The position numbers and the translations under genes were made by a program. Shown piece after piece: positions 2,290 through 38,022 of a DNA stretch of 64,000 nucleotides. Positions within the stretch are counted from its first letter, which is position 1. The number at the start of each line of letters is the position of its first letter. Source of the stretch: Procambarus clarkii. Lineage: Eukaryota > Arthropoda > Malacostraca > Decapoda > Cambaridae. The stretch covers positions 1,918,156-1,982,155 of the forward strand of contig NC_091208.1 in assembly GCF_040958095.1 (NCBI RefSeq), written 5' to 3'. The notes beneath the pieces were generated by a model, which saw only the letters and a list, made by a program, of their open reading frames with translations, made no database searches and was not told the DNA's origin.

Positions 2290-5200
2290 ATCATTTTTTT
2301 ATGATTATTATTTTTCTTATTATTTTTTATTTTACATTTATATTGTCAGTCTCTACTGATTTTTTTTTTTATTTTATGTAACTTCTGTGTCCTCCCTGGC
2401 TATCTATTGGATCTTTATTTAACTTCTAAATTGTTACTTTTTTTAATTATTGTATTTGCTTTTATTCTTGTGTTTTGCTTTATCGTGTATCTTGTATCGT
2501 GATCCCTCTGCATCTCTATGCACACTGATATTGATCCTGATCAAAACCTTCTGTCTCATATCTACACCAACCAGCACATTGATCATCATTATTGCAAGTA
2601 TTTCACAGCACACCAGGCTAAAAACAAACTCCAAAATAGCACCTGTCTATCAGTTTATAACCAAAATGTTAGATCACTTGGTAAACATTTTGACGATTTA
2701 AATGCATTACTCACAGCACTAGGTACTAACCTATCGTTCATTATTTTAACAGAAACTTGGCTAAATAAAGACTATACCCAACTCTACAACTTAGCTGGTT
2801 ATAAAGCCATTCATAACTGTAGGCCTAATAAAAAAGGTGGTGGCACAGCTATATATTACCGAGATACATTTATCTGCATCAGTGTTATTAGTGACAGAGA
2901 TGAATACTGTGAATATACTTTTGCTCAGTTTGCAATTAAATCCCTTAAATCCTCTTTGACTATTGGAGCCATCTATAGATTTCCCAATACTAACATAGCT
3001 TCTTTCTCAGACAACCTAAGGAATCTTATTATAAACAACAATCTCAACAAAAACCACATCATTCTGGGAGGAGACTTTAATATTGACCTGGGTCAACAAA
3101 ATTGCTCTCAAGTTGACTATTTCCTTAACGGCATGAACTCCTGTATGTTAATCCCCACAATCACCAAACCTACCCGAGTCACTCAAACATCAGCCACTAC
3201 CTTGGACCACATATGGACAAACATAACAGCTCCCCTTGTATCTGGTATAATCTACGACAGAACAACTGACCACTATCCTACCTTTCTCATAGCGAACATG
3301 GACATAACACTACCAAAAAGCAAGAAACTTTCATTTAGGCTACACAGTGAATCAGCTTTAGACAATCTTACAGAGGCACTTCACAATATTAACTGGGATT
3401 CTGAATTCAATAATACCCATGATATAAATTCATTAGCTAACCTCTTCCTCTCCAAAACTCTAAGCCTCTACAACCTTCATTGTCCCCTTCTTACCAAGCA
3501 AGTAACTGACAAAAGATTAAACAATCCATGGCTCACAAGTGGCATTCTCAACTCAATCAACAAGAAACATGAATATGAAAAGAAAGTTAGGATTGGCCTA
3601 GTTTCAAAGGAAGTAGCTAAAAGGTACTCATCAATGCTTACCAGTATCATAAGAAAGGCAAAACTTGCATATTATGTGAATAGATTCAATGAAGCAAAAG
3701 GCAACATGAAAAACACTTGGAAAACTATCTCTAGTATCCTAGGAACTAAACAACACTCACATAACCAAATAAAACTCTACAAGGATGGGGATATACCGTC
3801 AACTGATTTAGAAATGGCAAATGAATTTAATAGTTTCTTTTCATCGGTTGGTGCTAATCTTGCCAGTAAAATCCCACAGACTCAGACACATATTAACACA
3901 TATCTCTCAGGCAGCTATCCAAACTCTCTTCTCCTTTCACCAATCAGCCCGGCAGATGTTGTGTCCATCATACACTCTAAAAACCAAGGCAGGGAACACC
4001 AGTGAAATTCCGTCCATTGTGTACAAGAGAGCCTCCCATGCCCTTGCCCCACCCATAGCACTACTGTTCAACAAATCTATAGAGTGTCACACCTTCCCTG
4101 ATATCCTCAAAAAAGCAAGAGTAACGCCAGTCCATAAAGGAGGCAATCCGGCGGACATAAACAATTATAGACCAATATCAAATCTACCCATTCTATCAAA
4201 AATATTTGAAAAAATTATTTACAAACATCTCTATTCCTACCTCGTAAAATTCGACATACTCAGCCCCTGCCAGTTTGGCTTCCGGTCCCAAAAGAGCACC
4301 AACGATGCAATCATTAGTCTCCTTGACACTATCTACTCAGCCCTTGACAAAAATGAGTTTCTGATTGGACTCTTCATTGACCTAAGAAAAGCCTTTGATA
4401 CTGTTAATCACAACTACCTCTTACTTAAACTCCAGCATTATGGAATCCGAGGCCTTGCCCTTGACTACATCCGATCCTATCTTAGTGACAGACACCAATA
4501 TGTAACCATCAATGATACAACTTCTTCCACTCTACCAATTACCGTTGGAGTGCCACAGGGCAGCATCTTAGGACCTCTTCTATTTCTTATATATATAAAC
4601 GATCTGCCTAATGTCTCTAATATTCTCAAACCTATACTGTTTGCTGACGATACTACTCTTATCTATGCAAACCTCAACCCACATACACTAAATAATGTTG
4701 TGAATAATGAATTAAAAAAAGTCCACTTATGGATGTCAACGAACAAACTAACATTAAACATCGAAAAGACTTACTACATCTTATTTGGAAGCAAATCATC
4801 AAATGCAATTCAGCTACAGATAGACAACATCAACATCAGTAATAAAAATGATGGCAAATTTCTTGGCCTATTCCTAGACAAGAGACTCAACTTCAGCACC
4901 CACATTCAACACATAACTAAGAAAGTCTCTAAGACAGTTGGTATACTCTCCAAAATCAGATATTATGTTCCTAACTCTGCTCTCCTCTCACTATATTATG
5001 CACTAATCTACCCCTATCTTAATTATGGTATCTGTGCATGGGGGTCTACCACTGCAAACCACCTTAAGCCCATCATCACACAGCAAAAATCTGCTATCAG
5101 AATAATAACTAACTCTGCTTTCAGACAACACTTAGCTCCATTGTTTAAATCCCTAAACTTGCTAAATATTAACTCCCTCCACACATTCTCTTGTGTCAAC

Positions 5201-5968
5201 TACATTTACAAAACCCTGTTCTCAAATGCCAAACCATGCTCTGAAACTCTCCCTGGACAGATGTAATAGGACCCATTATCACCACACCAGAAATAAATAT
5301 CTCTTTGATATCCCCATTGTCAAACTTAATCTGTGTAAACACTCTATGCAAATTAAGGGACCTAGTCTATGGAACTCACTCCCTAGTGAATTGAAAAACT
5401 GTAAAACATTTGCCTTATTTAAAAGCAAAACCAAAAAGTACCTAACTTCATCTTCTTAGTTTCCTACACAGAGCTTTAAATTTGCTCTGTACCTAGTGTT
5501 ACCCAATCTCCTAATTTTTATGTAATTTTAAATCAACCTTATCATTGTGTTCATTGCTGTCTTCTTCTATGTGCTAGCCATATGCTGTATTGTGACTACC
5601 AATTTTTTGTAAACTACCATTCAAGCTGTCATTGCAACCAATCTTATATTGTTTCTGCTGTATTGTGCCTACCAATTTTTTGTCAACTACCATTCAAGCT
5701 GTCATTGCAATCAATCTCAGCTACCTATGTGCTTTAATATACTGTACCTACAATTTTCTCTCATCTTTTTTTCATTTCATGTAATCTGTTATCATTTTTT
5801 TGTCTATAATTTTTGCAAGTATTTACCTCCTTAAAATTTTCTTAGATTAAGGACCTGCCCGAAACGCTGCGCGTGCTAGTGGCTTTACAAGACTGTAATT
5901 ACCATATTTGTATCCTCATATTCCTTATGTACATTCTTGTATATGCATAAATAAATAAATAAATAAAT
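2290..5968 (+). mobile_element. Non-LTR retrotransposon (LINE), copy B, near full length
   Basis: Contains an AP-type endonuclease, a reverse transcriptase, a 3' UTR matching copy A and a terminal (AAAT)n tail at about 5945-5968. The 5' boundary is approximate: sequence before about 2290 holds the flanking orphan, and 2290-2517 is a T-rich leader without an ORF1. No target-site duplication is obvious, so the 5' end may be truncated. The tail ends inside the minus-strand gene at 5970-7488. Substitutions against copy A are few, pointing to the same recent subfamily. Confidence 0.88.
2518..5459 (+). pseudogene. LINE ORF2 (endonuclease-reverse transcriptase) with two frameshifts
   Basis: Three overlapping frames cover one protein. 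2518-4005 encodes the AP endonuclease: SVYNQNVRSLGKHFDDLN opens the domain, FIILTETWL carries the catalytic Glu, and GGDFNID and TTLDHIW follow. 3821-5266 then gives the RT with IDLRKAFDTVNH, GVPQGSILGPL and FADDTTLIY. 5193-5459 gives the C-terminal tail. The shifts fall near 3975-3990 and near 5230. Copy A is open across the second break, so that shift is private to copy B. The element is not expected to be active as written. It is possible that one shift is a consensus error. Confidence 0.88.
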
Positions 5969-9362: not shown

Positions 9363-11072
9363 ATGATTAACACAAGAGGTATTTTCAATTATCGGCATCG
9401 ACAATGGGCTTTACCTGGTGGAAACCTTAAACCCTGTCCTAAATGTTCGATCATTGATTCAGCCGATGCTGAATTAGAATTATTTCTTAGACACAGTCTC
9501 TACAATAAGCTTCAAATCGAAAACGATAGTTTTGAAAAGTTATTTAAAATTTACCCTGGCATAACATTTCATCTGAGTAATCAACCATATCTACTAAAAT
9601 CCAAAAGTGATGAATCCCAATTTATAAAATATTATCTAGATCGCAAATTGGTACTAGGGGTAGGACTACAACTTCCTGAATGGGATAATGACAAGCGACT
9701 AGCAGATTATGCCAAGTATAATTTTGCAGTGCCTGTAATGAAAAGTGGTCAAATGTGGCAAATGTTGGTAGAAGATCCTGAGAGACCTATTTATTATGAA
9801 CAATGGAAGTGCTGGCAAAGTAATCGGCTAATCCCCCCAAATACACATTTCCCGTTTAAATGTCTTATATGTGAAAACTTCCCCTTTGACGTTTATCTGG
9901 GCAATTTCATTGTGAGTGAATCTGTATGTTCCATCAAGTCGATAATATGGCCAGATCGTCGACGTCCTCATTTTAGCAGAAAAGAAAAAGCAGTTATTAT
10001 TTATGAAGAATCTAGGATTAAAAAATGGCCTTTTCTCTCTTCCTATATAAACCAGGATATTAATCATTTAGGAAATATGGCAATCTTTACAACTGGTGAA
10101 ATATTTATTAATTGTTTTTTAAATCTAGCTATACGCAAAGTAAATGCTACACTACTTCATAACAAGGTGGTTAAAATTTTGAAAGATCTTAACCATTCAC
10201 TTTCTCAAGAAAATTTAACAGTTTTAATGGAATATTATCGATTAAAAAGGAGCGATGCTAACAAAAATAATCTTAAAATTCTGGAAAATTATACATCCAA
10301 TCATAATAATATTAATAATAATATTATGAATGAAGGGAACAATGATATAAGATTAAAATTATCAGGACCACAAGTAGCTATGATTGCAATTAATCCTTTG
10401 AAAGTTAAAGCCACTGCTATTCGGTGTGGTCATATTGATGAGAGTATTACGCAAACAAAAATATTAAGCAATTCTGCAAGTATAAATACTTTAAATGAAA
10501 ATAATGGTGGTAATTCATTTAATAATAGCGGGAATAATGAATGGAATAAAATTGGTCGGTTTAGTCGGAATTATTCATCTAATTCATATGCCAATATATG
10601 TCTGGTGGCATGTGGATTACAAAAATTATTGCCTAAAGATTCCAAAGCCAAAGAGCCTAAATCTATAACGGTAAGTGAGGTCGGTTTCATTGATTTACTC
10701 AATACACCTGATACTTCTCAACGATGTGGTATCATATTAGAAATGATACCTGATGTGATAATCGCCTCTACCAGCATGTGTTATTCACAACCTGATAAAT
10801 TCTTATTTACATATCTCCCTCAACTAAGACAAGTGGGAAATCCTTCACAACTTGATCAGTTAGAATCTAAATATGTCTATATAATTATTCATAATAAACT
10901 GTTTAATTTCCCATTAGATTCGATCAAGAATGGTTCTGCAGCTCAACATTTTTTTCCTCATTTGCCTCTAGTTCAATGGAAATATGTTTGTTTATTTGGA
11001 GAAGACAATTTATACCGATTTGTTCAATATATTTTGAAATTAAATATCGCCTGTATAGAATTATTAGAATAA
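9363..11072 (+). CDS. RNA polymerase second-largest subunit-like, N-terminal half
   Basis: 569 residues, ATG at 9363. The first 400 residues are too diverged to place, with CPKC and CLIC pairs that might bind metal. At about residues 441-458, VGFIDLLNTPDTSQRCGIIL matches the (W/Y)G.xxPxETPEGxxCGLV block of RPB2/bacterial beta subunits in spacing and in the Pro-Asp-Thr and Cys-Gly-Ile residues. The part after it fits the region preceding the hybrid-binding domain. The frame ends at TAA 11070-11072; the next 13 codons are open in the same frame and lead straight to the ATG of the C-terminal half. Together the halves have about 1160 codons, close to the usual RPB2 length. Known comparison: LEF-8 of baculo- and nudiviruses is the same subunit class in one piece. 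An Asn-rich insert lies at about residues 310-330. Confidence 0.7.
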   Translation: MINTRGIFNYRHRQWALPGGNLKPCPKCSIIDSADAELELFLRHSLYNKLQIENDSFEKLFKIYPGITFHLSNQPYLLKSKSDESQFIKYYLDRKLVLGVGLQLPEWDNDKRLADYAKYNFAVPVMKSGQMWQMLVEDPERPIYYEQWKCWQSNRLIPPNTHFPFKCLICENFPFDVYLGNFIVSESVCSIKSIIWPDRRRPHFSRKEKAVIIYEESRIKKWPFLSSYINQDINHLGNMAIFTTGEIFINCFLNLAIRKVNATLLHNKVVKILKDLNHSLSQENLTVLMEYYRLKRSDANKNNLKILENYTSNHNNINNNIMNEGNNDIRLKLSGPQVAMIAINPLKVKATAIRCGHIDESITQTKILSNSASINTLNENNGGNSFNNSGNNEWNKIGRFSRNYSSNSYANICLVACGLQKLLPKDSKAKEPKSITVSEVGFIDLLNTPDTSQRCGIILEMIPDVIIASTSMCYSQPDKFLFTYLPQLRQVGNPSQLDQLESKYVYIIIHNKLFNFPLDSIKNGSAAQHFFPHLPLVQWKYVCLFGEDNLYRFVQYILKLNIACIELLE

Positions 11073-11111
11073 AAAAAAAATCAACTGTGGATATGCACCA
11101 GTCTGCCACGT

Positions 11112-12887
11112 ATGTCTTATAAAATTTTACCCAATGGCCAACTCTATACGTCTAAGGAAATAGACACTTTTCAAATGGAGGCTAATCCATTTTTTTATTT
11201 ACCACCTCAAATGCAACCTCAGATTTTTCTCAGAAAAGAAAATAGTGATCTCAAAGAGGATTTTGAATTACTTTATATTGGTTATGACCGGGAAAAAATA
11301 CCTAATATTATGGGGCCAAATGCTCGAGCGATTAGCCGTCCTAATGCTGCCCATCCCCCTCGAATTAGTAACAGTCTGCAATCGTATCGTCATTATGCTG
11401 GTATTTCTGTCAATACTCATTCTGTAGGTGAAATTCATCAAAAGACAGTTATTCATACATTATACACAACATCTCGAATGAGTAAACTTTTACCCATTCC
11501 TTGTCAAAATCCTATGGTGGCAGTAGTAAACTGGCACAATCCCGAAGACAGTATTACAGTAAAACAAGATAGTATAGACCGTGAGATATTTTCAGGTGTT
11601 TCTTATGAAACATCAATTGTTCGATATAATTATGGATCAGGACAGAATGCACTACCAACTTTTTGTCAGACCTATTTTGATCAGCATACCCCACTTCAAC
11701 GTGGTGTTCAGTTGGGAATTTTTAAAGGGGTTAATCCCAAGTGTCAAGAAGATAATAGTTTGCTTAATTTTACAAATGGAGAAATAGAATTCGTTCACAT
11801 AGATGCCAATACTCTTGCTCTTATTTGGAATGGTAAAATTGGGGATTTAAAAGAGCCTATATATGACGATTCTGTTCCAGTATATACAGGGACGAAGAAT
11901 GGAAAAGGGAGTCGAAATGACTACCGAGTTACAGTAAATGATCCACACCACCCTTCCCTTGAACGGCAACAACGGTTGAAGAAATCTCAATATTCTTTAG
12001 CTTTTAAAGAACATCATCCTAATTACATTACATTTAGGTACTTTAAAATAGATAGTGTAGATTTACCAGTACTACAAAGTTGGCGTTTTTCTCTGATAAC
12101 AGTGTCACCATATATACCATCTTTAGGTGATGAGTTACAAACACCCACTTCACAAAAAGGTGTAATTGGGCGATTAGTTAGTGAACAGGATATGCCTTAC
12201 ATTAAATTAATGAGTCAGGGTGATATGTTTTCATCAAATGTACCCATTGATGTTTTAGTTAACCCTCATTCACTTAAAAGACAAGCTCCAGATTTATATT
12301 GCAATACCTTTGATAATTTGAATTACATGGATGCAGCTTTTACTCTCACTTTTGAAAATGTTATTGAACATCTACAGTGGGGTCGAAAAACTTGTACTGG
12401 AATCCTTATGAATCCCTATACGGGTGAACCATATTTAAATAGAGATAATGAGCCAGTTTTAGCTAGTTTATATGAAGGTTCTTATATGTGTGTTACCAAT
12501 CACCGCGCAAATGCTATGATGCACACTTCACGAGCAGATGAAGTTGTATTTTCTGAACTGACCGGAGCACCAGTTCGAGGACGACGTGGTGATCTTTCCA
12601 CAGGACCCATGGAACTTGTATCATTCTGTAGTATAGGAGCTGCTCGAATTCATACAGAATTGACTCAAATACGCTCAGACATGAAACACATTGAATTGGA
12701 AACTATTCAAAATAATGAAACAGAAACAGAAAAAAATGAAAATGAAAGTGGAGTTATCTGTGGATTAAAATACCTTCAACGTTATCATGACGATTTAATG
12801 TTAGCAAATATTAACTTAGCATACAAATGTACATCCATGGTAAATATTGAAGAAATTAAAAAAAAAAAAAAATATTGTTATTGTTAA
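11112..12887 (+). CDS. RNA polymerase second-largest subunit-like, C-terminal half
   Basis: 591 residues. Several RPB2/beta hallmarks appear in order: a Pro-Arg-x-Ser-Asn region followed by Tyr-Arg-His (about 72-95); MVAVVNWHNPEDSITVKQDS (about 137-156), equivalent to the (N/H)QEDS.(I/V) block with the following IDREIFSGVSYET; GDELQTPTSQKGVIG (about 339-353), equivalent to GDKFSSRHGQKG; IDVLVNPHSLKRQ, matching the D(L/V).(V/I)NPHA(I/L)PSRM segment; and NPYTGEPY then HTSRADEVVFSELTGAPVRG and STGPMEL, matching the anchor region. The second of the two active-site lysines (in QKG) is kept, but the first (in GDK) is Glu. The protein ends in a Lys run without the Zn clamp of cellular RPB2. It would form the catalytic RNA polymerase core with a beta'-like partner, which is not in the window. 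Confidence 0.88.
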   Translation: MSYKILPNGQLYTSKEIDTFQMEANPFFYLPPQMQPQIFLRKENSDLKEDFELLYIGYDREKIPNIMGPNARAISRPNAAHPPRISNSLQSYRHYAGISVNTHSVGEIHQKTVIHTLYTTSRMSKLLPIPCQNPMVAVVNWHNPEDSITVKQDSIDREIFSGVSYETSIVRYNYGSGQNALPTFCQTYFDQHTPLQRGVQLGIFKGVNPKCQEDNSLLNFTNGEIEFVHIDANTLALIWNGKIGDLKEPIYDDSVPVYTGTKNGKGSRNDYRVTVNDPHHPSLERQQRLKKSQYSLAFKEHHPNYITFRYFKIDSVDLPVLQSWRFSLITVSPYIPSLGDELQTPTSQKGVIGRLVSEQDMPYIKLMSQGDMFSSNVPIDVLVNPHSLKRQAPDLYCNTFDNLNYMDAAFTLTFENVIEHLQWGRKTCTGILMNPYTGEPYLNRDNEPVLASLYEGSYMCVTNHRANAMMHTSRADEVVFSELTGAPVRGRRGDLSTGPMELVSFCSIGAARIHTELTQIRSDMKHIELETIQNNETETEKNENESGVICGLKYLQRYHDDLMLANINLAYKCTSMVNIEEIKKKKKYCYC

Positions 12888-12939: not shown

Positions 12940-13297
12940 GACTCTTTGCCACAGGGAAATAATTGTTGTGACACTAGTAAACTAGCTCTCTATAACTGCA
13001 GTGACTGGAAATCACCTCAGCCATAAAAAAACTGGCTCTTTGCCACAAGGAAAAATAACTGCAGTGACTGGAAATCACCTCAGCCATAAAAAAAACTGGC
13101 TCTTTGCCACAAGGAAAAATAACTGCAGTAACTGGAAATCACCTCAGCCATAAAAAACTGGCTCTTTGCCACAAGGAAAAATAACTGCAGTGACTGGAAA
13201 TCACCTCAGCTATAAAAACTGGCTCTTTGCCACAAGGAAAAATAACTGCAGTGACTGGAAATCACCTCAGCTATAAAAACTGGCTCTTTGCCACAAG
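12940..13297. repeat. Tandem repeat, 61-64 bp unit, five copies plus a diverged one
   Basis: Units beginning ACTGGCTCTTTGCCACAAGG start at 13031, 13095, 13157, 13218 and 13279 (the last partial); a diverged and expanded unit precedes them from 12940. The unit carries CTGCAGTGACTGGAAATCACC followed by a short A run whose length sets the period. It lies 50 bp after the polymerase stop codon and right before a candidate minus-strand gene ending near 13311. No open frame runs through it. Possible roles: homologous-region-like origin or enhancer (seen in baculoviruses), or plain satellite. Confidence 0.9.
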
Positions 13298-13310
13298 GAC
13301 ATAACCTGTG

Positions 13311-20096: not shown

Positions 20097-22829
20097 TTAT
20101 TTATTTTCAACTATTCCTCCCCTTATAGTGTTTATATGTCTATCCTTTAGATTCTTTTTCTCTGTTAATGCCTCGACTTGTCGCCTGCCTTGAGTCTTAT
20201 CTTTTGCCCTTTGTTTTGCGTCTTTTAAGTTCGTTTTATCTCTTTTTTGTGTGGTTGTTTTCTCAAGAGTTTCAGGCGAAGAAACTTTCTGAGAGGCGAT
20301 TGCTTTTAAAATGCTGTCATCACCCAATACACTTTCGTACTTAACTTTTAGGTTTTTAAGGAACCAAGATTTTTCTGCTTCCATATTAGCCTCGTGTAAT
20401 AACGCAATCGATTTTAAATTCTTCTTTTCGTTATCGATAGACACTATTTGATTATTATCCTCATTGTTGCTTATAGAATACGTACCATTTATCAGGGTTA
20501 ATTTACTAATATTGTATAGAATTGGGAAAACGGGTGCTATTTCTATAGCTTCATTTATCATCGGTATGTTCAATATTTCAGATAGCATATCTTGGTGGTT
20601 ATATATTTCTCTTGAAAAATAAAGGTTTAATTGAATGGAACGCCGAAGAATATTATCGTTTATTACCATGACAAGATTCTTATAGAACTGGGCGCAGAAT
20701 ATAAATTTGAAGATATGATTTGAAAGTGAAATAAATAATTGCATCATTTCAGATTTCGCCATTTCATTCTTGCAAAACATTTTTCTCATTGAGTTTTTCG
20801 AATGCTGATCTTAAATACTTATTGTTGCATGTCCCGGCCAAGTAAGCATCGAGCTGAGTAGTGACAGCTTGGATGATTAATGTGAATTTATTCATTTGAG
20901 TTTTTCATATTCTATGGGGTCCACCGAAGTCTCATCATGGTTAATCATCGACAAATGCATTCTTGTCTCACTTAATTCTGAAAGCATTTGTTTGTTGGAA
21001 TCCTGGAGACTAGCATTTGTCTGTTGAATGGTCAACAGGTTAGAAGTTATTGTTTCATTTTCTTCTTGTAAGGTCTTAACATGTAAATCATTTTGTTGTT
21101 GTAAAGCCAGTATTTCATGAATATTATCAGAAGGGAACTTACGAATCACGTTCAAGATAATGTAATAAAAGCGTTGTACATTATTTACATTCAAATCTTG
21201 CCTTATTTCCTTCTGGAATAATGTATATAGAATAGTAACGAATGCATAAACTTTTATAACTTCCTCATTCGTTCCTTTATGATCTTTTTCCAGGTCAACA
21301 ATTCGTTTGGTTATAATTTCTTGAACTAAAACTATTGATGCCACCGCATCTATTAACAGTTTAGCAAGATAATTAGGTTCGTCTAATTGGCGTTTTAAAT
21401 GATCATTTTCATTTACATAGGGCATTATTTGACGTTCGTGTTCATATACTGTTTCATCAATAATATTAGTTTTAAATTTTTCTAATATTTGATTAAATAA
21501 ATTTCTTTCTTCCTCGTTAGTAAAAATATTAAGTAAATCATTATTTTGGAGTGGTTCAATATTAATAATATAATAATTTAAACGGGAAATCCTGTCTTTA
21601 ATGTCCTTTTCACGTTCTTGGTAAATGTAGTTATCGCGTTCGGTATTCAACTGACTACTGAACCGATTTATTATTGCTTCAATTTGTGATTTTCTTGTTT
21701 CCTTTGATTCATCATCATCATCTAAAGGAAATATGCTTGAAAAACAATGAATTATATCGCTATTCGATAATGTAGGTTTTGTATAAAGTCGCTCTAATGT
21801 TTCAATATTATATTTATTTACTTCATTTATATTCTTTACTAATATATTATATTCATCATACTAAATTTGTTTAGAATTTTCACAATCAAGTAGTTTTTGT
21901 TCGCATTCCTCAAGATAATGTTTTTGGGATACTAATAGCTTATTATATTCTTCTTGGTCTGATTGTTTATCATAGTTGCATTTTTGTAGGGCTTGTTGGC
22001 ATTCCAGAAATTGCATTTTCTGGATCCTTATATCGTTTTCACATGCGGCTAATTTCCTATTTAATTCTTCTTGTTGTTGACGACTTATAGTTAATTGTTC
22101 ATGTGCACTTTTTAGTTCCTTTTCGAGTGCAACGTATTTGGATCTTATTCTAGTATTATTTGAATTTATTAAATCGGTTAGTTTTTCTTTTTCATCAGCT
22201 AAGTCTTTTATTTGTTTGTCTTTGTCTTCAGAGATATGTTGAATTTGTCTATCTTTCTCATTTACCAAAAATGCATATTCTGTTTCATACTTTTTCTTTT
22301 CATCATCGTATTGGATTCTAAGCTTCATTAATTCAGTATTATTTCGATCTTCTAGATTATTTTTCAATTTATTTTGATTATCTTGAAGAGTTAAATTTTC
22401 CTTCTTTAAATTCTCTATTTCATTTTCTTGGTCTCCTAATTTCTTTGTAAGCTGCACAATAGTAAGTTCTAAATCTCTCACACTTGTATTTAAATCTGTT
22501 ATTGTGGCATCTTGATATCCACATTTAATTTCTAATTCACTTTTTTCATTCTCGCATTCATTACATTTTTTATTCAAATGAGCTATTGTTTGTTTTTGTT
22601 GATTCTGACTCTTAAGAGGATATGTTTCAGTTATTAATTTAATATATCGATCAGAGATAGTAAACAAATGAAGCATTTTATTCAATAATAAAATTATTCT
22701 TTTATCATCATCATTCACAACAACAAAATTGTTAATAAGAGTTTTTATGAATATACGTTCTCTCAAACCCGAGGAACCATTGTCTAGGAATGTTATAGTA
22801 TTCACGATTATTTTAACAATTTCACTCAT
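20097..22829 (-). pseudogene. Large coiled-coil protein (MSEIVK family), broken copy 1
   Basis: One gene of about 910 codons from ATG at 22829. Residues 1-85 form a helical head (MSEIVKIIVNTI, SGLRERIFIKTLINN), residues 90-320 a long Lys/Glu/Gln coiled coil, and residues 330-800 a mixed helical region with FCAQFYKNLV and IQLNLYFS, ending in a basic tail. Breaks: a single in-frame TAG at 21861-21863 with open frame on both sides, and two frameshifts near 20893 and 20790. A paralogue at 42225-45094 covers the same length and reads through the TAG position. No known domain beyond the coiled coil; size and shape suggest a structural or scaffold protein. Confidence 0.7.
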
Positions 22830-24222: not shown

Positions 24223-26164
24223 CTAGGATATAATTACTTTAAAAGTATATTTTATCTCAGCTCTGCAAATTGGACATGTGGATATGTTTGATGCACATTT
24301 GAAACAAGTGCACATGTGATTACAAGGAAAAAACATTAACTCACTCTCATTCTCCATACAAATCTTACACTCAATCACTCTGTGTCTAATTTTACCTTCT
24401 GATTTTGGGAGAGCGGCAACTTGATCACTTATTCTACCAAATAATGGTTGTGGGTTAGAATCACCTGACATTGGTGGGCTTGGGACAACATCAACTTCAG
24501 TCAATGTCAATTCATCAACTATTGTAGATTCTACTTGCTGATTGGGGTAAGACGCCAACTCAGTTCCATCAGACATTGGTTGGCTTGGAACAACATCAAC
24601 TTCAGCTAATGCCAATTCATCTACTATAGGCTGTATTAAAGTTGTAGATGATTCTACTTGTTGGTTTTGGTCAGAAGCCAACTCATTTCCATCAGACATT
24701 GGTTTGCTTGGGACAATATCAACTTCAGCCAAGGCTAATTCATCTACTATAGGCTGTATTAAAGTTGTAGATGATTCTACTTGTTGGTTTTGGTCAGAAA
24801 CCAACTCATTTCCATCAGACATTGGTGGGCTTGGGACAACATCTTCAGCCAATGTCAATTTATTTACTATAGGCTGTATTAAAGTTGTAGATGATTCTAC
24901 TTGTTGGTTGGGTCAGAAACCAACTCTTTTCTAACTTCGTCTTCTATGTACTGTAAGACTGCTTCAATAAATGACTCAATGTTAAAGAAAGGTAACCCCT
25001 TCTCTTTGAGTTGATTATGATACGTTGTCATCACATGATCTTCCTGGAAACCCATTGAAATAAGGTGCTTAGTCATGTCTAGTTCCTTAATAAGTTTGTG
25101 TTGATCTTCATTGATATGGGTTATTGAAGGGTTTGTCTCATAAGGTGGCCTTTCTCCTTGAACCTGAAAAAAAAGAATAAAGTTAATGTTACAAATGGCT
25201 TTTATAAAGATTACAATAATAATAGTCAACCTTCATTTCAAGTTACTGTAACTCATCTAGCTGACATACCTGATCAATGAATTCTTTTCCTTTCGTCAAG
25301 AAGAGGAAGGTACACTCTGGGTACCAGGGAGCATGTTCATCCCAAGGTATATCATCAGTTTCCCAGTTTCGAAGTCCATTCCCACAATGATAAAAGCGCA
25401 CATGATCACTTAAACCACAATAGAAGAATCCAGCTTCTGACAATTCAGTTGGTTTCTGTGTTACACGTTCAGGCCAATTGTTAAAGCTTGCTAGGCGACT
25501 TTCAAGTGTTAAGTAGTCTTTTCGCTTGGCGATGGTATGCTGGTGAACTCCATTGTTTGTCATAGGACTTAGACCACAGACATCTATTCCTTGTGTATAG
25601 GACGAATTTTTACTATTTCTCAGTGGAACGGAATAACCCATTGAATTTTTCATTAAATAGTAGTGGAAAATTTCCCACTGGTTGGTTTCGAATGAATGGA
25701 CAATGGGGAAAGTGAAACTGATGTTCGCCTCTGGGAGTGTCTCCTCTTTCCCAGGCACCAAGAATGCCTCGACAAAAGACACAAGCAACGTGGTCATTTG
25801 TTCGCAGGTAGTAAAAGCCATCACGAGCCAAATCAGATGGTTCTAACCATTCAAGTGGCCAATCTATGTAGGTATCCAAACGTTCCTTTTCAAACCGTAA
25901 ACTGTCATATGAATCAAACTTCTTAGAAATAGATCTTTTCACGTTCTGATTAAATGTGCATTCTGGTTTCTCTTTCTTATGTAAAGCAATGATTCTATTT
26001 TCATCTTGGTTTACGTTCGTGGCATCAATTTGAAAATGGCACATTGAACATTCTAAAAGATTTGCTTTATGAGTATAATAGAAACCCGCCTTTGCAAGTA
26101 CATGACTGTTTACACTGAAGTTACAGTCCTTAAAAGTCTCCAAACGATTTTTTTCTTCTCTCAT
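24223..26164 (-). CDS. Inhibitor of apoptosis protein (BIR x3, UBA, RING), spliced, copy 1
   Basis: Exon 1 is 26164-25270, exon 2 25163-24223, separated by a short intron with GTATGT and a pyrimidine-rich TTTTTTTTCAG. Exon 1 encodes three BIRs: a degenerate BIR1 (CSMC with a long spacer), a canonical BIR2 (CVFC, 16 residues, His, six, Cys) and BIR3, where the first zinc Cys is Phe although GLRNWE and the His-x6-Cys half remain. Exon 2 encodes a UBA domain (ISMGFQEDHVMTTYH region), a repeat linker and a RING (CKICMENESELMFFPCNHMC, CPICRA). This is the layout of animal cIAPs. Each exon has one single-base indel against copy 2 (in the run near 25637 and in a T run near 24907), so the frame is broken here but open in copy 2. 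This copy alone keeps the RING. Confidence 0.88.
24463..24930 (-). repeat. 126 bp coding tandem repeat in the IAP linker
   Basis: About four units of 42 codons, with recurring VESSTTLIQPIVDELALAEVD and VPSPPMSDGNEL elements, between UBA and RING. Units differ by a few codons and small deletions in multiples of three, which indicates selection on the frame. Likely a flexible spacer. The gap in copy 2 begins at the border of this repeat. Confidence 0.85.
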
Positions 26165-26219
26165 TGCTATGAAAACAAAATGTGAGTGTTGTATTAGACT
26201 GACTAGTTAGTGACTGAGA

Positions 26220-26300
26220 GAGGCATCTCTCTCTCTCTCTCTCTCTTTATATAATACACAATCTCCCTCCCCCATCCTCCCCCTCCTCCTTCTCCTCGTC
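26220..26300 (-). promoter_or_regulatory. Likely IAP promoter: TATA box with purine-rich upstream element
   Basis: On the minus strand a GGAGGAGG-rich stretch (26268-26306) is followed by TTATATAAAG (26245-26254) and a (GA)n run (26223-26246), about 80 bp before the ATG. A possible 5' UTR acceptor (TTTTCATAG) lies just before the ATG. 26300-26960 holds no gene except downstream ligase sequence: a second coding-like frame after the ligase stop reaches about 26865. Confidence 0.55.
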
Positions 26301-26960
26301 CTCTTCCTGTTGACTCATAGACTTAAAATTGGGACTATAGAGTTTATCAGCTGAAATCCTTTACCAAATCCCTTAGTAAAAAGCTGAAATAATGGTAAGA
26401 AAAATATAGGGAACCAAGTGGAAATTCTGTGATAAAAATAGAAATTTAATTGTGGAAATTTTACTACATTTTTTACACAGATTCTTTTCTCAACCTGGGC
26501 GCCCCCCCCCCCCCAAAAAAAAAATAAATAAATCACGTCCCAGATAAAAAAATACTACTACCTAACTACTTACTTATTTTTATTGATGAACACTTTATAT
26601 ATCATATGTAAATCAATACAAACTCCAGTCTAAAAGATGTCATCCCTACCACAGGTGTTACTAGAAAACATATTTTAATTAATTGTCCCTAGTCCACTTC
26701 TCGACAGTAATGAAGACGGTAATTTGTCTCTATAGACTTCTAAAGATGATCAAGACGAAAATGTGTAACTGAGTTGGTTGTTTTCCCAATGCCTTCCACT
26801 ATATAATAAAGTTAATGGTAACTAACCACCTAATTCTTCTTCATCATCTTCAAAATTGTCGGTCAAATTTTTTTTCAAAAAGAAACCTGCTCCATATTGT
26901 TGGAAATTGGGGCCTAATATCTTCCACGGCAATATGTTTTTTTTCTACTTTTTCATTTAG

Positions 26961-28470
26961 TCACTGTAGAAAACTTGTCCCCATTTCCTGAAAGTAATGA
27001 TAATTATTTATTAGTGTTATAAATCCCTTATTTTTCAACCTAATTTTTCAAATAATTAATTTCTTAAGAGGGTCTTTTATGAAAACAAAGTAGGTAGGTG
27101 CTTTACCCATCATACTCACCTTACATCTTTGTAAAATATAAATCGAAAACTTGAGCCATTTCTGAATTTCATTTAGTCGTAATTGAGTTAAGTGAATATT
27201 ATTCTCTAAACTCCAATTTTGCTTGTTTTTTTTCTTGGATAAAAAACAATAAACTGCTTTTTCCCTCAAGGCTCTAAGTATTACATACCATCTTGTTTTT
27301 ACTTTTATCATTCCAATTGTTTCTTCATTCTCATTTAGAAAATAAAAAACTTCACCTTCTTTGTAAAGATCACTTTGCACCTGTAAAAATAATTTAATAA
27401 TATAGTTTCATAAAAGAAATTGTATTGAAAAATGTGACAATATAAATTGGCACTTCCTTGTACAATAGACTTTTTGTTTGCCTACCTTATTCTGTGTTTC
27501 ACTACATCTTTAGCTTCAATTATTGAATAGGCAGGAGATGTAAAGCCTAATGCCGTAAACAGGTTGAGTGTGTAGTGTGGAGGTAATGCAAGAAGGCTAG
27601 TCTCTTCATATTCGTTGTACAATGGAGTAAAACAGATAACGTTGAGTTGATGCTTATCCAAGTGACTGAGGTTAACAATATGTTGGTTGTCAGGTTGAAG
27701 AAGCTCACACACAGCTGTACATTTAGTATAGTGTAAGATACTATATACCAAATGTCGATTCATAATATCCATATTATTCAATTGTATCCCACAGTGATCT
27801 GGCCACAACTTTAGCAACAACATAACGTTCTCCATCATACCGCTCAATGTCTTCCCTTTCTCCAATTAACATACGAACACTTTTACTCCCAGTAATTAAA
27901 AAAAAATTTACCATTAATGTATCTGCCACTGAAATGAGCTGATTCACCATTCACTTTAGTCATACAAACTACTTTAGAAGTAGTAGTACTGGGATCTTCT
28001 AAGCAATATTGTTTCCATAGATCATTTGTTTCCGGTTGTTTATCATCCTCATCACCAATACCACCAGTAAATTTTTTATTGGCAAAGATCACTAAATCAA
28101 ACTGTCCCTTAAACTCCAAGAGTGTTACACCACGAGGAACATTTTTTCGAACTTCCGGATCATTGTTGTAGATTGTGTCATCAGGGCCATAGCAGTTGAC
28201 CTTTATGTCATGAAGAATAGCAGGGTCGTCTTCAGGGAATAGGATTCCATGTGGGACATTTGCACTTATTCTTTTTATCTTCTTTTTTTCTTGCAATGTT
28301 TTTAAAAAGATTTTCATACCTACAAACAAAAGAAAAAAAAATAAGAAGTAATAATTTATTGGGGTATGGATATTATAAAAAATATATATATGATATATAT
28401 TATTAACATATTATAATAATGATACTTACAATTCCGAAGACTTTAAACTGTTTTCAGCATAACAAATCAT
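26961..28470 (-). pseudogene. RNA-ligase-like nucleotidyltransferase, copy 1 with indels
   Basis: Same four-exon gene as 35930-37438. Exons here are 28470-28430, 28319-27486, 27380-27120 and 26987-26961. Exon 2 is 834 instead of 832 nt, with one-base indels in a T run near 28308, in an A run near 27900, near 27785 and near 27494, so it is frameshifted. The splice sites are identical in both copies. The motif KVNGE and the GSKSVRM block are present. These differences are most simply consensus errors or allelic variants of one locus. Confidence 0.75.
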
Positions 28471-28689
28471 CTTCTGAAATGAAAATCTTCTGCTCCAAAT
28501 GTATCTGGAAGTTTTTCTTTCATCTTTTTTTGGAATATGTTATCAAGGGTCATCATTAACATATTTATAGAAAGTGGTGAATCCATAGTTGTTGTATATG
28601 TCAACAATTAAATAATATTAAATAGTTATCACTATGGACATATGCATGCTGCATCATACCACTTAACACTGAGGTAATAATACTGGGCA

Positions 28690-28770
28690 TAACGCTTTTA
28701 TATACTTGAAGGCGATTTAACTCACCCCTCCCCCTCCTCCTCCTCCTCATCCTCCTACTCCTCAAGTCAG
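28690..28770 (-). promoter_or_regulatory. Likely RNA-ligase-like gene promoter
   Basis: On minus, GAGGAGGAGGAGGAGG (28732-28755 and around) is followed by TATATAAAAG (28696-28705), about 230 bp before the proposed ATG. The same purine-rich block plus TATA arrangement precedes the spliced IAP. 28471-29052 otherwise has only AT-rich sequence and a pyrimidine tract with CAG just before the next plus-strand gene, possibly a 5' UTR splice acceptor. Confidence 0.45.
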
Positions 28771-29052
28771 AATTGAAAAGATAGATATAAAAGAATTCAA
28801 CTGTCAGTTACAACCCTAGTCCTGTGCTGTATCTAGTGAGTCCACTTTGATAATATTATAATATAATAAGATAATATAATTATATTGACTTAGTTTGGGT
28901 AAGGTAGGGTTTTGTTTGGTCTTACTCTAATTATTAATCCTGCATCACCTTATACTATCTTAGATAAAAATGTTGATTGAGCAGTTAAGTTACATATGCC
29001 TTAACATATTTTTTTTTTTTTTACATTCACAGATTTGAAATAAATCACCATT

Positions 29053-29475
29053 ATGACTGATATTAACGAGACAACAGCAAATTTTGAAAATGATAAGACT
29101 TCGAGTGAACCCAACCCTACAGGCAAAGCAATGAACCCCAATGAAATATGGGAAGCTGAATCTGTTAAGACTGAACCCAACCCTACTAACCCCAATGAAA
29201 TATGGGAAATTGAATCTGTAAAGATTATGTTAATAAAACTTGAAGAAATACTACTAAAGTGGGGAATAAAATATGAATTATTCATGAGACAAAATAATGG
29301 AGTCAAGCTTGAAAATACCTATCAAGTGATTTTGATGTCGAAGGCCTCATCACAGGAAAACATTGAAATAAACCATATTAAAGTAGTATTTCAAGATGAT
29401 GAATTGGTTTTGTTTAATGGGTGTGATGACAACTTAAGTTACCACCTGAAAAAAACACAAATATGTTGTGTGTGA
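29053..29475 (+). CDS. Orphan acidic protein, copy 1 (frameshifted end)
   Basis: Same gene as 38023-38535; identical ATG and 130 of the codons. One extra A in the run near 29452 shifts the frame and ends the protein 30 residues early. See copy 2 for the description. Confidence 0.55.
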   Translation: MTDINETTANFENDKTSSEPNPTGKAMNPNEIWEAESVKTEPNPTNPNEIWEIESVKIMLIKLEEILLKWGIKYELFMRQNNGVKLENTYQVILMSKASSQENIEINHIKVVFQDDELVLFNGCDDNLSYHLKKTQICCV

Positions 29476-30324
29476 GTATACCCTCATCCAATTAACTATC
29501 CATAGTTTTTTTAAATATGAAGAAAATTACCCACTACTTTGTACATACGAATTTTTAAAGATGAATGGGCATCCAGCCCAGCGTGGGATAATCGGGTGAA
29601 GTAACTTTACACACAAAATTTAATGATTATTTCCTCGGCTCCAAATAGATGTTTTCCTCCTCCCCAACTTCAATGGAAGAATCACTTGATATATCAATGA
29701 GATAGCTTAACAAAAAGCTATAATGTCTCCTGTCCCTCCTCCCCTCTATTTGGAGGAGGTGGGTGCAAGGCGTCGTCCTCATTCACTCCAAACCCACCTT
29801 CACGTATCTAGACAGTCTTCACAATACCGACATATGACAACTTGTACTGACACTCACCGGAACTAGTGCCAGCCATACTGACATTATCATCTTACTTTTT
29901 AATTATACTACATCTGTTCCCATTCTGGGCTCACTTTTTATTTAGTGAAAAATTACAGTGAAATTAAAAGGTGGCCCCCATTCCCCTACCTATGTACACT
30001 AGAATAATAAAGGCAAAATTAAAAAAAAAATAAAGCAATATATTTTATAATTCATACACACTTTTATTTAGTGAAAATTACAGTGGAATTAAAAATGAAA
30101 TGAGGCAGCCTTCAACTGTTCGAAAGTTTTTTTTTTTTAAATCAGCAATCTCCTGCCAGAGGTTTGTATTCTTCTTCTTCAGGTCGGTGATGTACCCACG
30201 TCACTCACTATGTCAGTCACTGTGCGGAAGTTTTGAATAACATTGGCACTTTGGTCCCATTATAAATTAAGATGACTTCCAAGTGGGTGCACATATCAAT
30301 TCCTCAAAAGAAAGGCGCGTTGTT
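29476..30324. other. Intergenic, with coiled-coil gene remnant
   Basis: Between about 30115 and 30200 the minus strand encodes a short stretch (ITDLKKKNTNLWQEIADLKK) like the heptads of the neighbouring gene at 30325-30740, either a lost 3' exon or a relic. Otherwise non-coding, with an A/T-rich palindrome-like CCTCCTCC/GGAGGAGG pair near 29735-29765. Copy 2 (38536-39297) is the same. Confidence 0.4.
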
Positions 30325-30740
30325 TCAGCCTTCCAACTCTTTAATTTCATTTTTTAAATCATCAATCTCCTGCTTGAGGTCGGTGTAGTTCTGCTTCAGG
30401 TAAGTGATTATTTTTAATAACTCTTGCTCTATCATCTTCAATAGTGTGTTGTTCTGATTGATGTCGGTGTTGTTCTGCTTGATGTTGGTGATTATTTTGC
30501 TGATTAATTGTAACAACTCTTGGTCTGTCTTCAAAATATTGTCTCATTCTGCTTGATGATGTCGGTGTTGTTCTGCTTGAGGTTGGTGTTGTTCAGCTTG
30601 ATGTGGAATATTTGTAACAACTCTTTCTCTATATTCAATATTAGTGTCTCCTCTTCCTCTTCCCAGCATAGTTTCAAGGTTTTTTTCAGCGTATCTTGTG
30701 TCCTATTCTCCATCCTGGGGTTCATCTGAGGAGAGAGCAT
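30325..30740 (-). CDS. Small coiled-coil protein (MLS family), copy 1
   Basis: Same as 39298-39714. The ATG at 30740 follows the shared promoter cassette at the conserved distance. One A missing near 30532 breaks the frame after about 69 residues; copy 2 is open throughout. Confidence 0.55.
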
Positions 30741-30905
30741 CTCGGACAACTTTTTCTTTGGAAGAGCAGCGAAGCTGGCCATCAGTGGATGTAATATAAG
30801 AGTGAGAGTGGTCGGCGGCAACGAATATTTATATATATGGCTCAACTGACACAGTACTGCTCCGGACAACCAGCTATTACATTACTAGGTGGAACTTCGC
30901 CGCCA
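30741..30905 (-). promoter_or_regulatory. Shared TATA promoter cassette, copy 1
   Basis: On minus: AGCTGGTTGTCCGGAGCAG, CTGTGTCAGTTGAGCC, TATA box CATATATATAAATA (30826-30839), ATTCGTTGCCGCCGACC, then GCTGCTCTTCCAAAGAAAAA to the ATG. See the entries at 19535 and 47990 for the matching cassettes. Confidence 0.7.
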
Positions 30906-31686
30906 TGAGTTTGATCACAAGGTTTTCAACACTTTATCTAAAATATCACTTTTAAAATGTTGACTTCAACCTTCAAACGGTCCAAAAATTTTTTATTAAA
31001 TCAGTATTCTTCTGCTTGAGGTTGGTGGTGTTCATCGTTTTTTCTAATCAATATTCTTTTGATGAGGTGTATTGATGTTCTCTCTGTGACATCAATAAGC
31101 ATTGTTTCAATTTTTTTTTTCAGCGCAGCTTCTTTACCCTAACTTGTGGGTTACAGAAGTTAATGAAATTGGGGAGTATGACTGCTACGGGATGCCCACT
31201 CACGGATGCGATCCCACTATTTCTTGACACGGGTGCTTTTGGCTGCTGGGTTGAAGAAGTTACGTAAAAAAGTGAATTTGAATTAAAAATTGCCCAAATA
31301 CTAGAAAAAGGTGGGGGCCTGGGAGCCTTTTGGAAAAATTTGGGTTGGGGTAGATAATAAAATAAATTAATTTGTGGAAATAATATAATATATTCAGTAT
31401 CTCATTCTTTTACCTTTTTTTACCCCAATTATTTATTTAGAGTGACTAACAACTACTACTATTTTCTGATTGAACTGTCCATTCATGCTTATTTTGTAAA
31501 AGTATTTTCTTGGGGAAATAAGCCACCACAATGCAGCCAACAAACATTCAGAAACCGGTTTCAAGGTTCTGCTATACAGGCATTCCTCATTTTTTTCTCC
31601 AGTCTGTGTGATTTTATCCATGATGGCTTCGGTAAAAAAAAAAAAAGGTAACTTCCGAATGGTCCTGAACAACTTCTATCTTCCAT
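30906..31686. other. Intergenic, with second coiled-coil remnant
   Basis: At 30990-31040 the minus strand encodes MNTTNLKQKNTDLIK, clearly related to the heptad repeats of the gene at 30325-30740, followed by stops. No other gene visible. Equivalent positions in copy 2 are 39844-40661. Confidence 0.4.
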
Positions 31687-32384
31687 TTAGTGTCTGTCAC
31701 TTCGACATCTCTTTTTGGGAAGTTGCGGAGCTGTGTAGTAGCAAATAAGAAAGACATTAATATATTCTCTACCGAATAAATTTTACAGAGCATAGGAATT
31801 CACAGATTTAAAAAAAAAAAACTTTTAATCACAAAAAAATAAATAACATACACTGAAATTAAAAGGATTAATTTCAGTCCATCCTAGACTAACTAGGTCA
31901 GACCTAAAACGTCATAATTTTCACTTATTAGTAAAGTTAATTACAAATACATACCTGTGCCTGTTGTTGTTTCCTGACCGAAGACACGTTCCTCCACATT
32001 CTCCTGCTTCTCCCATTCCTCCCCTGACTTGGTGTCATCATCTCCATCTGAAGACCATGGCCATTTGATTTTTCTAGAATCAAGCTTCCTTAGTGCCTTT
32101 TCTTTCTTCTTCATCTTTCTCTTTATGGCCTTATTTAGTACCAAGCCCTTTAGTTTGTCAATCAACCGGTCACTTTCGAATGCGTCTGAGGACGACGATA
32201 AGGACGACGATGAGGACGACGATAAAGACGATAATGAGGAAGAAGATGAAGAAGATGACCTTGCTTTTACCGTTGATTCAACCAAACAAGACATTTGCTC
32301 AAGTAAGACAGATGCAGCTTGACCTCTTTCAGCTTGTTCTTTTGCTTCCCCAGAAGAGTTAGTAGTTATCTCGAAACCCTTCAT
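31687..32384 (-). CDS. Ser-rich acidic/basic protein, two exons
   Basis: Exon 1 is 32384-31955, ending in ACAG followed by the donor GTATGTATT; exon 2 is 31730-31687 after the acceptor CTACTACACAG, in phase. The product has about 157 residues: a polar start, a Ser run of about 30 residues (SSSSSSSLSSLSSSSSSS), a Lys-rich segment (KAIKRKMKKKEKALRKLD), an acidic patch (DGDDDTKSGEEWEKQE) and a basic tail (PKKRCRSDRH) that looks like a nuclear signal. Probably disordered and nuclear. Function unknown. The 5' region 32385-32929 has a TATTTAAG box near the gap and splice-like sites, so a leader exon is likely. Confidence 0.5.
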
Positions 32385-32929
32385 CAGTTCGGAAACAAGG
32401 GGTGGGGGAGGATAGAGGGAGGAAAGAACGAATAACAATAAATTAAAATTACTATTATAATTGTGTTTTACTGTAGTATAATGAATAAAAAATCAATCTC
32501 TAAATGTTAATTTACCTGAAAGAGACAAATAATTACAAGTCAATCATTTTACACTATACTCTCTTTATATGTTTCCAAATGGCTTAGGAAGTGGTATATT
32601 CTGACTTGTTTCCTTCAGCTGAGATAGCTGGCTGTACCTGATCATTGCGCACATAAGTAGTTATGTAGGTACTATAACAATAAGAAATAGAGTGTGTGGT
32701 TTTTTTATGATTTGATTCATAAACTGAACTGGTAAGGAATTGATTATTGAAGCTTGTTGTTATGTAATTCTTGATGGACTAGATGACTGCATATGGATCA
32801 ACAGTTAAACTGTAATGACGCCCGCCACTACCCTACTGAATGATAAACTGCTTAATTTCAGTAGACTATTATACACCTGACACTGGAGCTGGAGAGAGAG
32901 CAAGGGTTTGTGACTCTTAAATAGGCAGA

Positions 32930-33429: not shown

Positions 33430-35131
33430 ACCTGACATTGGTGGGCTTGGGACAACATCAACTTCAGTCAATGTCAATTCATCAACTATTGTAGATTCTA
33501 CTTGCTGATTGGGGTAAGACGCCAACTCAGTTCCATCAGACATTGGTTGGCTTGGGACAACATCAACTTCAGCTAATGCCAATTCATCTACTATAGGCTG
33601 TATTAAAGTTGTAGATGATTCTACTTGTTGGTTTTGGTCAGAAGCCAACTCATTTCCATCAGACATTGGTTTGCTTGGGACAATATCAACTTCAGCCAAG
33701 GCTAATTCATCTACTATAGGCTGTATTAAAGTTGTAGATGATTCTACTTGTTGGTTTTGGTCAGAAACCAACTCATTTCCATCAGACATTGGTGGGCTTG
33801 GGACAACATCTTCAGCCAATGTCAATTTATTTACTATAGGCTGTATTAAAGTTGTAGATGATTCTACTTGTTGGTTTGGGTCAGAAACCAACTCTTTTCT
33901 AACTTCGTCTTCTATGTACTGTAAGACTGCTTCAATAAATGACTCAATGTTAAAGAAAGGTAACCCCTTCTCTTTGAGTTGATTATGATACGTTGTCATC
34001 ACATGATCTTCCTGGAAACCCATTGAAATAAGGTGCTTAGTCATGTCTAGTTCCTTAATAAGTTTGTGTTGATCTTCATTGATATGGGTTATTGAAGGGT
34101 TTGTCTCATAAGGTGGCCTTTCTCCTTGAACCTGAAAAAAAAGAATAAAGTTAATGTTACAAATGGCTTTTATAAAGATTACAATAATAATAGTCAACCT
34201 TCATTTCAAGTTACTGTAACTCATCTAGCTGACATACCTGATCAATGAATTTTTTTCCTTTCGTCAAGAAGAGGAAGGTACACTCTGGGTACCAGCGAGC
34301 ATGTTCATCCCAAGGTATATCATCAGTTTCCCAGTTTCGAAGTCCATTCCCACAATGATAAAAGTGCACATGATCACTTAAACCACAATAGAAGAATCCA
34401 GCTTCTGACAATTCAGTTGGTTTCTGTGTTACACGTTCAGGCCAATTGTTAAAGCTTGCTAGGCGACTTTCAAGTGTTAAGTAGTCTTTTCGCTTGGCGA
34501 TGGTATGCTGGTGAACTCCATTGTTTGTCATAGGACTTAGACCACAGACATCTATTCCTTGTGTATAGGACGAATTTTTACTATTTCTCAGTGGAACGGA
34601 ATAACCCTTGAATTTTTCATTAAATAGTAGTGGAAAATTTCCCACTGGTTGGTTTCGAATGAATGGACAATGGGGAAAGTGAAACTGATGTTCGCCTCTG
34701 GGAGTGTCTCCTCTTTCCCAGGCACCAAGAATGCCTCGACAAAAGACACAAGCAACGTGGTCATTTGTTCGCAGGTAGTAAAAGCCATCACGAGCCAAAT
34801 CAGATGGTTCTAACCATTCAAGTGGCCAATCTATGTAGGTATCCAAACGTTCCTTTTCAAACCGTAAACTGTCATATGAATCAAACTTCTTAGAAATAGA
34901 TCTTTTCACGTTCTGATTAAATGTGCATTCTGGTTTCTCTTTCTTATGTAAAGCAATGATTCTATTTTCATCTTGGTTTACGTTCGTGGCATCAATTTGA
35001 AAATGGCACATTGAACATTCTAAAAGATTTGCTTTATGAGTATAATAGAAACCCGCCTTTGCAAGTACATGACTGTTTACACTGAAGTTACAGTCCTTAA
35101 AAGTCTCCAAACGATTTTTTTCTTCTCTCAT
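33430..35131 (-). CDS. Inhibitor of apoptosis protein, spliced, copy 2 (RING lost in gap)
   Basis: Exon 1 35131-34238 (298 codons, open) and exon 2 34131 into the gap. The splice sites and domain order match copy 1: degenerate BIR1, good BIR2, BIR3 with Phe in place of the first zinc Cys, then UBA and the 42-residue linker repeats. The protein is open in frame through both exons, which shows that the gene was recently functional. The C-terminal RING lies in the missing part and is visible only in copy 1. TATA box at 35212-35221 in the same promoter arrangement. Confidence 0.9.
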
Positions 35132-35929
35132 TGCTATGAAAACAAAATGTGAGTGTTGTATTAGACTGACTAGTTAGTGACTGAGAGAGGCATCTCTCTC
35201 TCTCTCTCTCTCTTTATATAATACACAATCTCCCTCCCCCATCCTCCCCCTCCTCCTTCTCCTCGTCCTCTTCCTGTTGACTCATAGACTTAAAATTGGG
35301 ACTATAGAGTTTATCAGCTGAAATCCTTTACCAAATCCCTTAGTAAAAAGCTGAAATAATGGTAAGAAAAATATAGGGAACCAAGTGGAAATTCTGTGAT
35401 AAAAATAGAAATTTTAATTGTGGAAATTTTACTACATTTTTTACACAGATTCTTTTCTCAACCTGGGCGCCCCCCCCCCCCCCAAAAAAAAAAAAAATAA
35501 ATCACGTCCCATATAAAAAAATACTACTACCTAACTACTTACTTATTTTTATTGATGAACACTTTATATATCATATGTAAATCAATACAAACTCCAGTCT
35601 AAAAGATGTCATCCCTACCACAGGTGTTACTAGAAAACATATTTTAATTAATTGTCCCTAGTCCACTTCTCGACAGTAATGAAGACGGTAATTTGTCTCT
35701 ATAGACTTCTAAAGATGATCAAGACGAAAATGTGTAACTGAGTTGGTTGTTTTCCCAATGCCTTCCACTATATAATAAAGTTAATGGTAACTAACCACCT
35801 AATTCTTCTTCATCATCTTCAAAATTGTCGGTCAAATTTTTTTTCAAAAAGAAACCTGCTCCATATTGTTGGAAATTGGGGCCTAATATCTTCCACGGCA
35901 ATATGTTTTTTTTCTACTTTTTCATTTAG

Positions 35930-37438: not shown

Positions 37439-38022
37439 CTTCTGAAATGAAAATCTTCTGCTCCAAATGTATCTGGAAGTTTTTCTTTCATCTTTTTTTG
37501 GAATATGTTATCAAGGGTCATCATTAACATATTTATAGAAAGTGGTGAATCCATAGTTGTTGTATATGTCAACAATTAAATAATATTAAATAGTTATCAC
37601 TATGGACATATGCATGCTGCATCATACCACTTAACACTGAGGTAATAATACTGGGCATAACGCTTTTATATACTTGAAGGCGATTTAACTCACCCCTCCC
37701 CCTCCTCCTCCTCCTCATCCTCCTACTCCTCAAGTCAGAATTGAAAAGATAGATATAAAAGAATTCAACTGTCAGTTACAACCCTAGTCCTGTGCTGTAT
37801 CTAGTGAGTCCACTTTGATAATATTATAATATAATAAGATAATATAATTATATTGACTTAGTTTGGGTAAGGTAGGGTTTTGTTTGGTCTTACTCTAATT
37901 ATTAATCCTGCATCACCTTATACTATCTTAGATAAAAATGTTGATTGAGCAGTTAAGTTACATATGCCTTAACAAATTTTTTTTTTTTTTTGACATTCAC
38001 AGATTTGAAATAAATCACCATT

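Follow-up and report, generated by a model that had tools for sequence, protein, structure and literature searches.

Evidence that an RPB2-like RNA polymerase subunit gene in a crayfish endogenous viral element is probably decaying

Two open reading frames (ORFs) encode the halves of an RPB2-type subunit

We analyzed a 64,000-nucleotide stretch of contig NC_091208.1 (the window), in which two ORFs, separated by a single TAA and 13 codons, encode the successive halves of a protein related to RPB2. We think it highly probable that they are the remains of one gene, a decaying RPB2/beta-type subunit gene of a virus-encoded multisubunit RNA polymerase, lying in an endogenous large DNA virus of the crayfish genome. 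The gene is laid out as follows:

9363..11072, + strand: ORF1, 569 residues, the N-terminal half of the RPB2-like RNA polymerase subunit, terminated by the TAA at 11070-11072
11070..11072, + strand: the in-frame TAA stop, within a linker poorly conserved in the family; it opens a ten-A run
11073..11111, + strand: inter-ORF segment, 39 bases or 13 open codons, still encoding the W-x-C-x-S block of the family
11112..12887, + strand: ORF2, 591 residues, the C-terminal half, carrying the ED and GDK...QKG blocks (GDE here)

Coordinates and sequence bear out the initial annotation on this layout: ORF1, the 13 codons, and ORF2 share one phase throughout, interrupted solely by the TAA. Its assignment to RPB2 also stands, and we regard the identity of ORF1 and ORF2 as an RPB2/beta-type subunit by descent as solid. 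That assignment had been made to depend on an RPB2 or LEF-8 match in 11112-12887, and ORF2 indeed matches Pfam RNA_pol_Rpb2_6 (E 1.6e-11; 44.4 bits, cut-off 23.4), with weak sequence matches to archaeal and eukaryotic RPB2 chains in the PDB (best 2.3e-4). ORF1 alone gave Rpb2_3 below threshold in Pfam (E 0.14) and no significant match in a PDB sequence search; its whole extent can be aligned with the N-terminal part of those relatives that match ORF2 in their C-terminal half. The ED, GDK...QKG, and GG..GPxE blocks are arranged in RPB2 order, and the Glu-Asp pair of the NxxED block is present both in ORF2 (HNPED) and in each of the 12 viewed relatives covering it. Rpb2 domains 1, 2, 4, 5, and 7 were absent from the Pfam listings for ORF1, ORF2, and eight relatives.

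The relatives form a family with an unusual active-site loop

Searching with ORF2 returned six proteins: the uncharacterized Procambarus clarkii proteins P0001 (50.9 Mb contig) and P0002 (36 kb contig), which are the nearest database proteins, and four metagenome proteins from ENA. The four proteins found with ORF1 were all among these six. A five-sequence profile (A3) then gave 14 matches (P0003-P0005, P0007-P0016, and P0017); P0001 and P0002 were kept out of alignments A3-A6 because their models skip parts. Only P0017 bears a name, that of RPB2 (E 7.2e-4); the other 13 are nameless, and none of the 14 is named as viral. Both P0013 and P0017 stand outside the alignments, and P0013, examined by motif only, has the GDK and ED patterns and did not fit the motif written for the stop-flanking block. 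Pfam was run on eight of the 13 viewed metagenome relatives, seven of which exceeded the cut-off for Rpb2_6 (P0005 barely, at 23.5); the exception, P0016, stops short of the loop. A 15-row, midpoint-rooted tree of the ORF2 part, with P0001 and P0002 trimmed to their C-terminal parts, sets the three crayfish sequences apart by a branch (100/100) and joins them to P0003-P0005 (100/100). A stretch in ORF1 is common to P0007-type relatives and absent from P0003-P0005. Neither IMG/VR, scanned with ORF2, ORF1, alignments A3 and A5, and three other ORFs of the window, nor the GTDB genome contigs, searched with A5, yielded a match.

The active-site loop of the family reads GDKLQTPTSQKG or near it. In all 12 relatives covering the block (P0003-P0012, P0014, and P0015), TPTSQKG-like letters stand where archaeal chains show SRHGQKG, and none of the 12 has Arg-His before the loop end. 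To our knowledge, RHGQKG is near-universal in other RPB2/beta-type subunits, and the archaeal chains viewed here do show it. We conclude that these proteins probably make up a new, deep-branching lineage of RPB2-like sequences, marked by this loop and by the lack of a virus-named member among the proteins found.

The window copy departs from its relatives at the active site and at the stop

From a working subunit we expected two active-site Lys residues (GDK...KG) and an uninterrupted frame. Both Lys are present in all 12 covering relatives and in P0001 and P0002; the window alone has Glu at the first position, which confirms the GDE...QKG reported by the initial annotation. Because of this Glu and the in-frame TAA, we file the window copy as a decayed homolog rather than a working subunit, and the Glu, private to this copy, is best read as decay of the copy and not as a feature of the enzyme.

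At the split site, each of the 12 viewed metagenomic relatives that span it is a single uninterrupted protein (856-1198 residues). No internal gap interrupts the alignment of the 13 inter-ORF codons to the relatives, apart from a single additional residue in P0014, and between the flanking conserved residues the window is at most one codon longer than the relatives. The W and C of the W-x-C-x-S block occur in 12/12 relatives and the S in 11/12 (P0016 differs). Scored against a column profile of this block built from the 11 split-spanning relatives in A5, the inter-ORF segment reached 14.7 bits, a value that no other 13-codon stretch free of stops attained in the six frames of the window (0 of 54,744), although the best competitor came close (14.2 bits). 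The ORF2 ATG corresponds to an internal position of the relatives, at which P0005 and P0016 also have Met. Retention of conserved residues in codons that a functional split would leave untranslated points to a recent lesion. For the split, the best reading is a nonsense lesion that struck a decaying gene, not a polymerase made in two pieces; what looks like such a polymerase is, most likely, a pseudogene.

The sequence of events that we envisage is as follows. In the viral ancestor, to judge from the relatives, the gene would have been one open frame, and its product, to judge from the family, would have paired with a beta'-type subunit and transcribed viral genes. In the window copy, the stop would have arisen in the poorly conserved linker and the first Lys of the active-site loop would have changed to Glu; the ATG of ORF2 would have been inherited as an internal codon and would not have evolved as a start.

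The two other crayfish sequences skip the region of the stop

P0001 and P0002, which may be copies, alleles, or different assemblies, are very close to the window copy: over 489 shared positions the window differs from P0001 at 8 (98% identity) and from P0002 at 13 (97% identity). Private changes over these positions number 8 in the window, 5 in P0002, and 0 in P0001; at the 75 family-invariant positions, the window has 3 and P0002 has 0. Both public proteins jump across the stop region, with GT and AG at the inferred borders in the window. The jumps delete conserved blocks of the relatives (that of P0001 removes the GFIDLLNTPDT region, and both remove W-x-C-x-S), so neither is likely to yield a working enzyme. 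Since a gene predictor would insert such an intron into a broken frame, the stop at 11070 may, judging from the sequences, be common to the other crayfish copies. In addition, the last six residues of P0001 fit another frame of the window, which suggests that P0001 carries a lesion of its own.

Weighing of alternative explanations

Several observations weigh against a decaying RPB2-type gene. The predicted structures lend the RPB2 fold weak support (mean predicted local distance difference test scores of 57 and 48). The top Foldseek matches are RPB2-like, yet among the rows listed their template modeling scores are 0.12-0.16 with root mean square deviations above 21 Å; the ORF1 model gave no match at E ≤0.001, and RNAP B appeared only with the second-look aligner. 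(The model of P0007, with a predicted template modeling score of 0.37, was used for top matches only.) Taken alone, the excess of private changes in the window at invariant sites falls short of significance (hypergeometric p 0.11), and in the ORF1 part P0002 departs as well, at two sites conserved in 11/12 and 9/10 relatives, one of which adjoins the exon edge of its model. Both frames are long and otherwise open, an AATAAA hexamer that a genuine gene end could use overlaps the ORF1 stop, and the jumps in P0001 and P0002 may leave room for an older shared split or for host splicing.

The last three of these points bear on a real split into two genes whose polypeptides assemble, like archaeal B'' and B', as does the position of the stop. 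The archaeal B' starts at about residue 517 of the full-length subunit (from TIGR03670/PRK08565 offsets), and the end of ORF1 maps to about residue 557 of P. furiosus RNAP B; the stop is therefore near the archaeal boundary, some 40 residues inside B', a crude estimate, as the structure alignment reports no more than the two end residues of the aligned range. By this estimate, the claim of the initial annotation that the split precedes the archaeal C-terminal B subunit does not appear to hold. As both public crayfish proteins avoid the spot, a shared stop would also suit a real split. We nevertheless consider it very improbable: none of the 12 viewed relatives has the halves as separate genes, on which ground we rejected an archaeal-type functional split, translation from the ORF2 ATG would omit W-x-C-x-S, for which the 13 codons still code, and the active-site Lys is gone from the window copy. 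An error of sequencing or assembly in the A-run is slightly less improbable, and still unlikely. The TAA does open a run of ten A's and there is an assembly gap elsewhere in the window, but an error in run length would shift the frame unless a multiple of three bases is involved, whereas here both sides lie in one frame with their codons aligned, and the same copy has further private changes at invariant sites.

We give the least credence to a stop bypassed by intron splicing or readthrough. P0001 and P0002 lack the stop region, the window offers GT and AG at both inferred borders, and some eukaryotic-like majanivirus genes have introns according to PMC10871703. Nonetheless, because the window is at most one codon longer than the relatives at this place, no intron fits without removing conserved blocks, as the two jumps illustrate; an intron confined to the stop was rejected since the alignment has no room for it. 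Moreover, a TAA with A as the next base is not known to be leaky, which counts against readthrough. Among the real split, readthrough, and decay that the initial annotation had entertained, we therefore favor decay, and of its interpretation overall the RPB2 identity, the one-frame continuity, the Lys-to-Glu change, and the option of decay survive, while the functional split and the archaeal boundary are not supported.

Context of the gene in the window

The window is AT-rich. Because its nearest proteins are from crayfish, one of them on a 50.9 Mb contig, it is probably an endogenous viral copy in the genome of Procambarus clarkii or a near crayfish, and the source virus appears to belong to a large DNA virus group without a name so far. 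BIR and RING genes lie within the window (Pfam); together with recombinase-like and other ORFs and the crayfish match, they fit an endogenous large DNA virus. At one end lie ORFs for reverse transcriptase and endonuclease (Pfam), which we infer to be of the non-LTR (long terminal repeat) type, and one further ORF has sub-threshold DUF7920 and RNA-ligase matches. The other features noted were:

12992..13299, strand unspecified: 61-bp tandem array, five copies, directly downstream of ORF2; membership in the gene is not implied
54798-55538 and 55733-56599, - strand: two neighbouring ORFs with what look by eye like the halves of a tyrosine recombinase (TGLR..E; HSLRADFATR...LGHS...Y)

The two recombinase-like ORFs gave only a weak Phage_int_SAM_5 match (E 0.041) and none in a PDB sequence search. 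Naldaviral or nimaviral core genes (e.g. wsv514 DNA polymerase, wsv447 helicase, wsv360, pifs) were not seen among the Pfam families listed for 59 distinct ORFs of the window, itself only part of the element. A search for a beta' partner, proposed by the initial annotation, recognized none by the DxDGD motif in 395 stop-to-stop frames of at least 45 residues within the 64-kb window. Rfam at gathering thresholds gave no match over the whole window.

Repeats were also observed. Positions 1-1865 and 4101-5968 are 97% identical, overlap the reverse transcriptase ORFs, and adjoin the endonuclease ORF at 2518-4005. A direct duplication of about 8.5 kb (24463-32929 and 33430-41918, 99.2% identical) flanks a gap of 500 N and may be real or an assembly artefact; an IAP ORF and a DUF7920/RNA-ligase-like ORF have greater length in one copy, and their counterparts in the second copy are broken. 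The segments 21139-21529 and 43413-43804 (74% identical) lie in two ORFs without a known family and are perhaps a diverged duplicate pair, and the ORFs at 46599-47291 (+) and 53876-54703 (-) look like paralogs by eye, with no Pfam match above cut-off.

Discussion

The family resembles RPB2, archaeal Rpo2, and the second-largest subunits of nucleocytoplasmic large DNA viruses and poxviruses in its Rpb2_6 match, its ordered blocks, and its best fold matches, and differs from them in a loop without Arg-His and in the unlisted Rpb2 domains 1, 2, 4, 5, and 7. Among arthropod viruses, baculo-, nudi-, and hytrosaviruses have an RNA polymerase subunit of RPB2 type, LEF-8, and Pfam includes a LEF-8 model. 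The profile search suggested by the initial annotation thus succeeded for RPB2 and failed for LEF-8, which was unlisted for ORF1 and ORF2 (E up to 10) and for eight relatives (E up to 1); we rejected LEF-8 as the nearest family for lack of a profile match, a separation made by profile only.

In PMC10271883, LEF-8 is described as an RNA polymerase subunit, and nimavirids are reported to be without lef-4/8/9 homologs, in agreement with the premise of the initial annotation that nimaviruses have no polymerase of their own, and to stand outside Lefavirales, whose members carry their own polymerase genes. Nimaviruses are a described group of endogenous large DNA viruses in decapods, some with BIR genes and tyrosine recombinases (Kawato et al., PMC10871703). 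The window is like them as an AT-rich, viral-type decapod element with BIR genes and tyrosine-recombinase-like motifs, and unlike them in having an RPB2-like gene and no recognized nimaviral core gene. We regard the virus as unassigned for the present. The main text of PMC10871703, as far as it was available, has no occurrence of 'RNA polymerase' or 'Procambarus', and the accessible parts of the open-licence PMC literature (excluding preprints and including PMC10871703 and PMC7016691) report neither a polymerase subunit in an endogenous nimavirus nor a Procambarus endogenous nimavirus.

More speculatively, and with considerable doubt, we raise the idea of a nimavirus-related lineage of large DNA viruses that is endogenous in crayfish, may also occur as free virus in metagenomes, and encodes a multisubunit RNA polymerase of its own, from a new family resembling RPB2. 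If true, this lineage would link the Lefavirales, which carry polymerases, with the nimaviruses, which are reported to lack them. Genes for an own polymerase help to define virus orders. The departure of the family from the RHGQKG loop could be tested by enzymologists. A crustacean viral element whose RPB2-like gene branches deeply, together with twelve uninterrupted metagenomic relatives, offers an entry point to a virus group, and the same material allows one to ask when viral polymerases were gained or lost.
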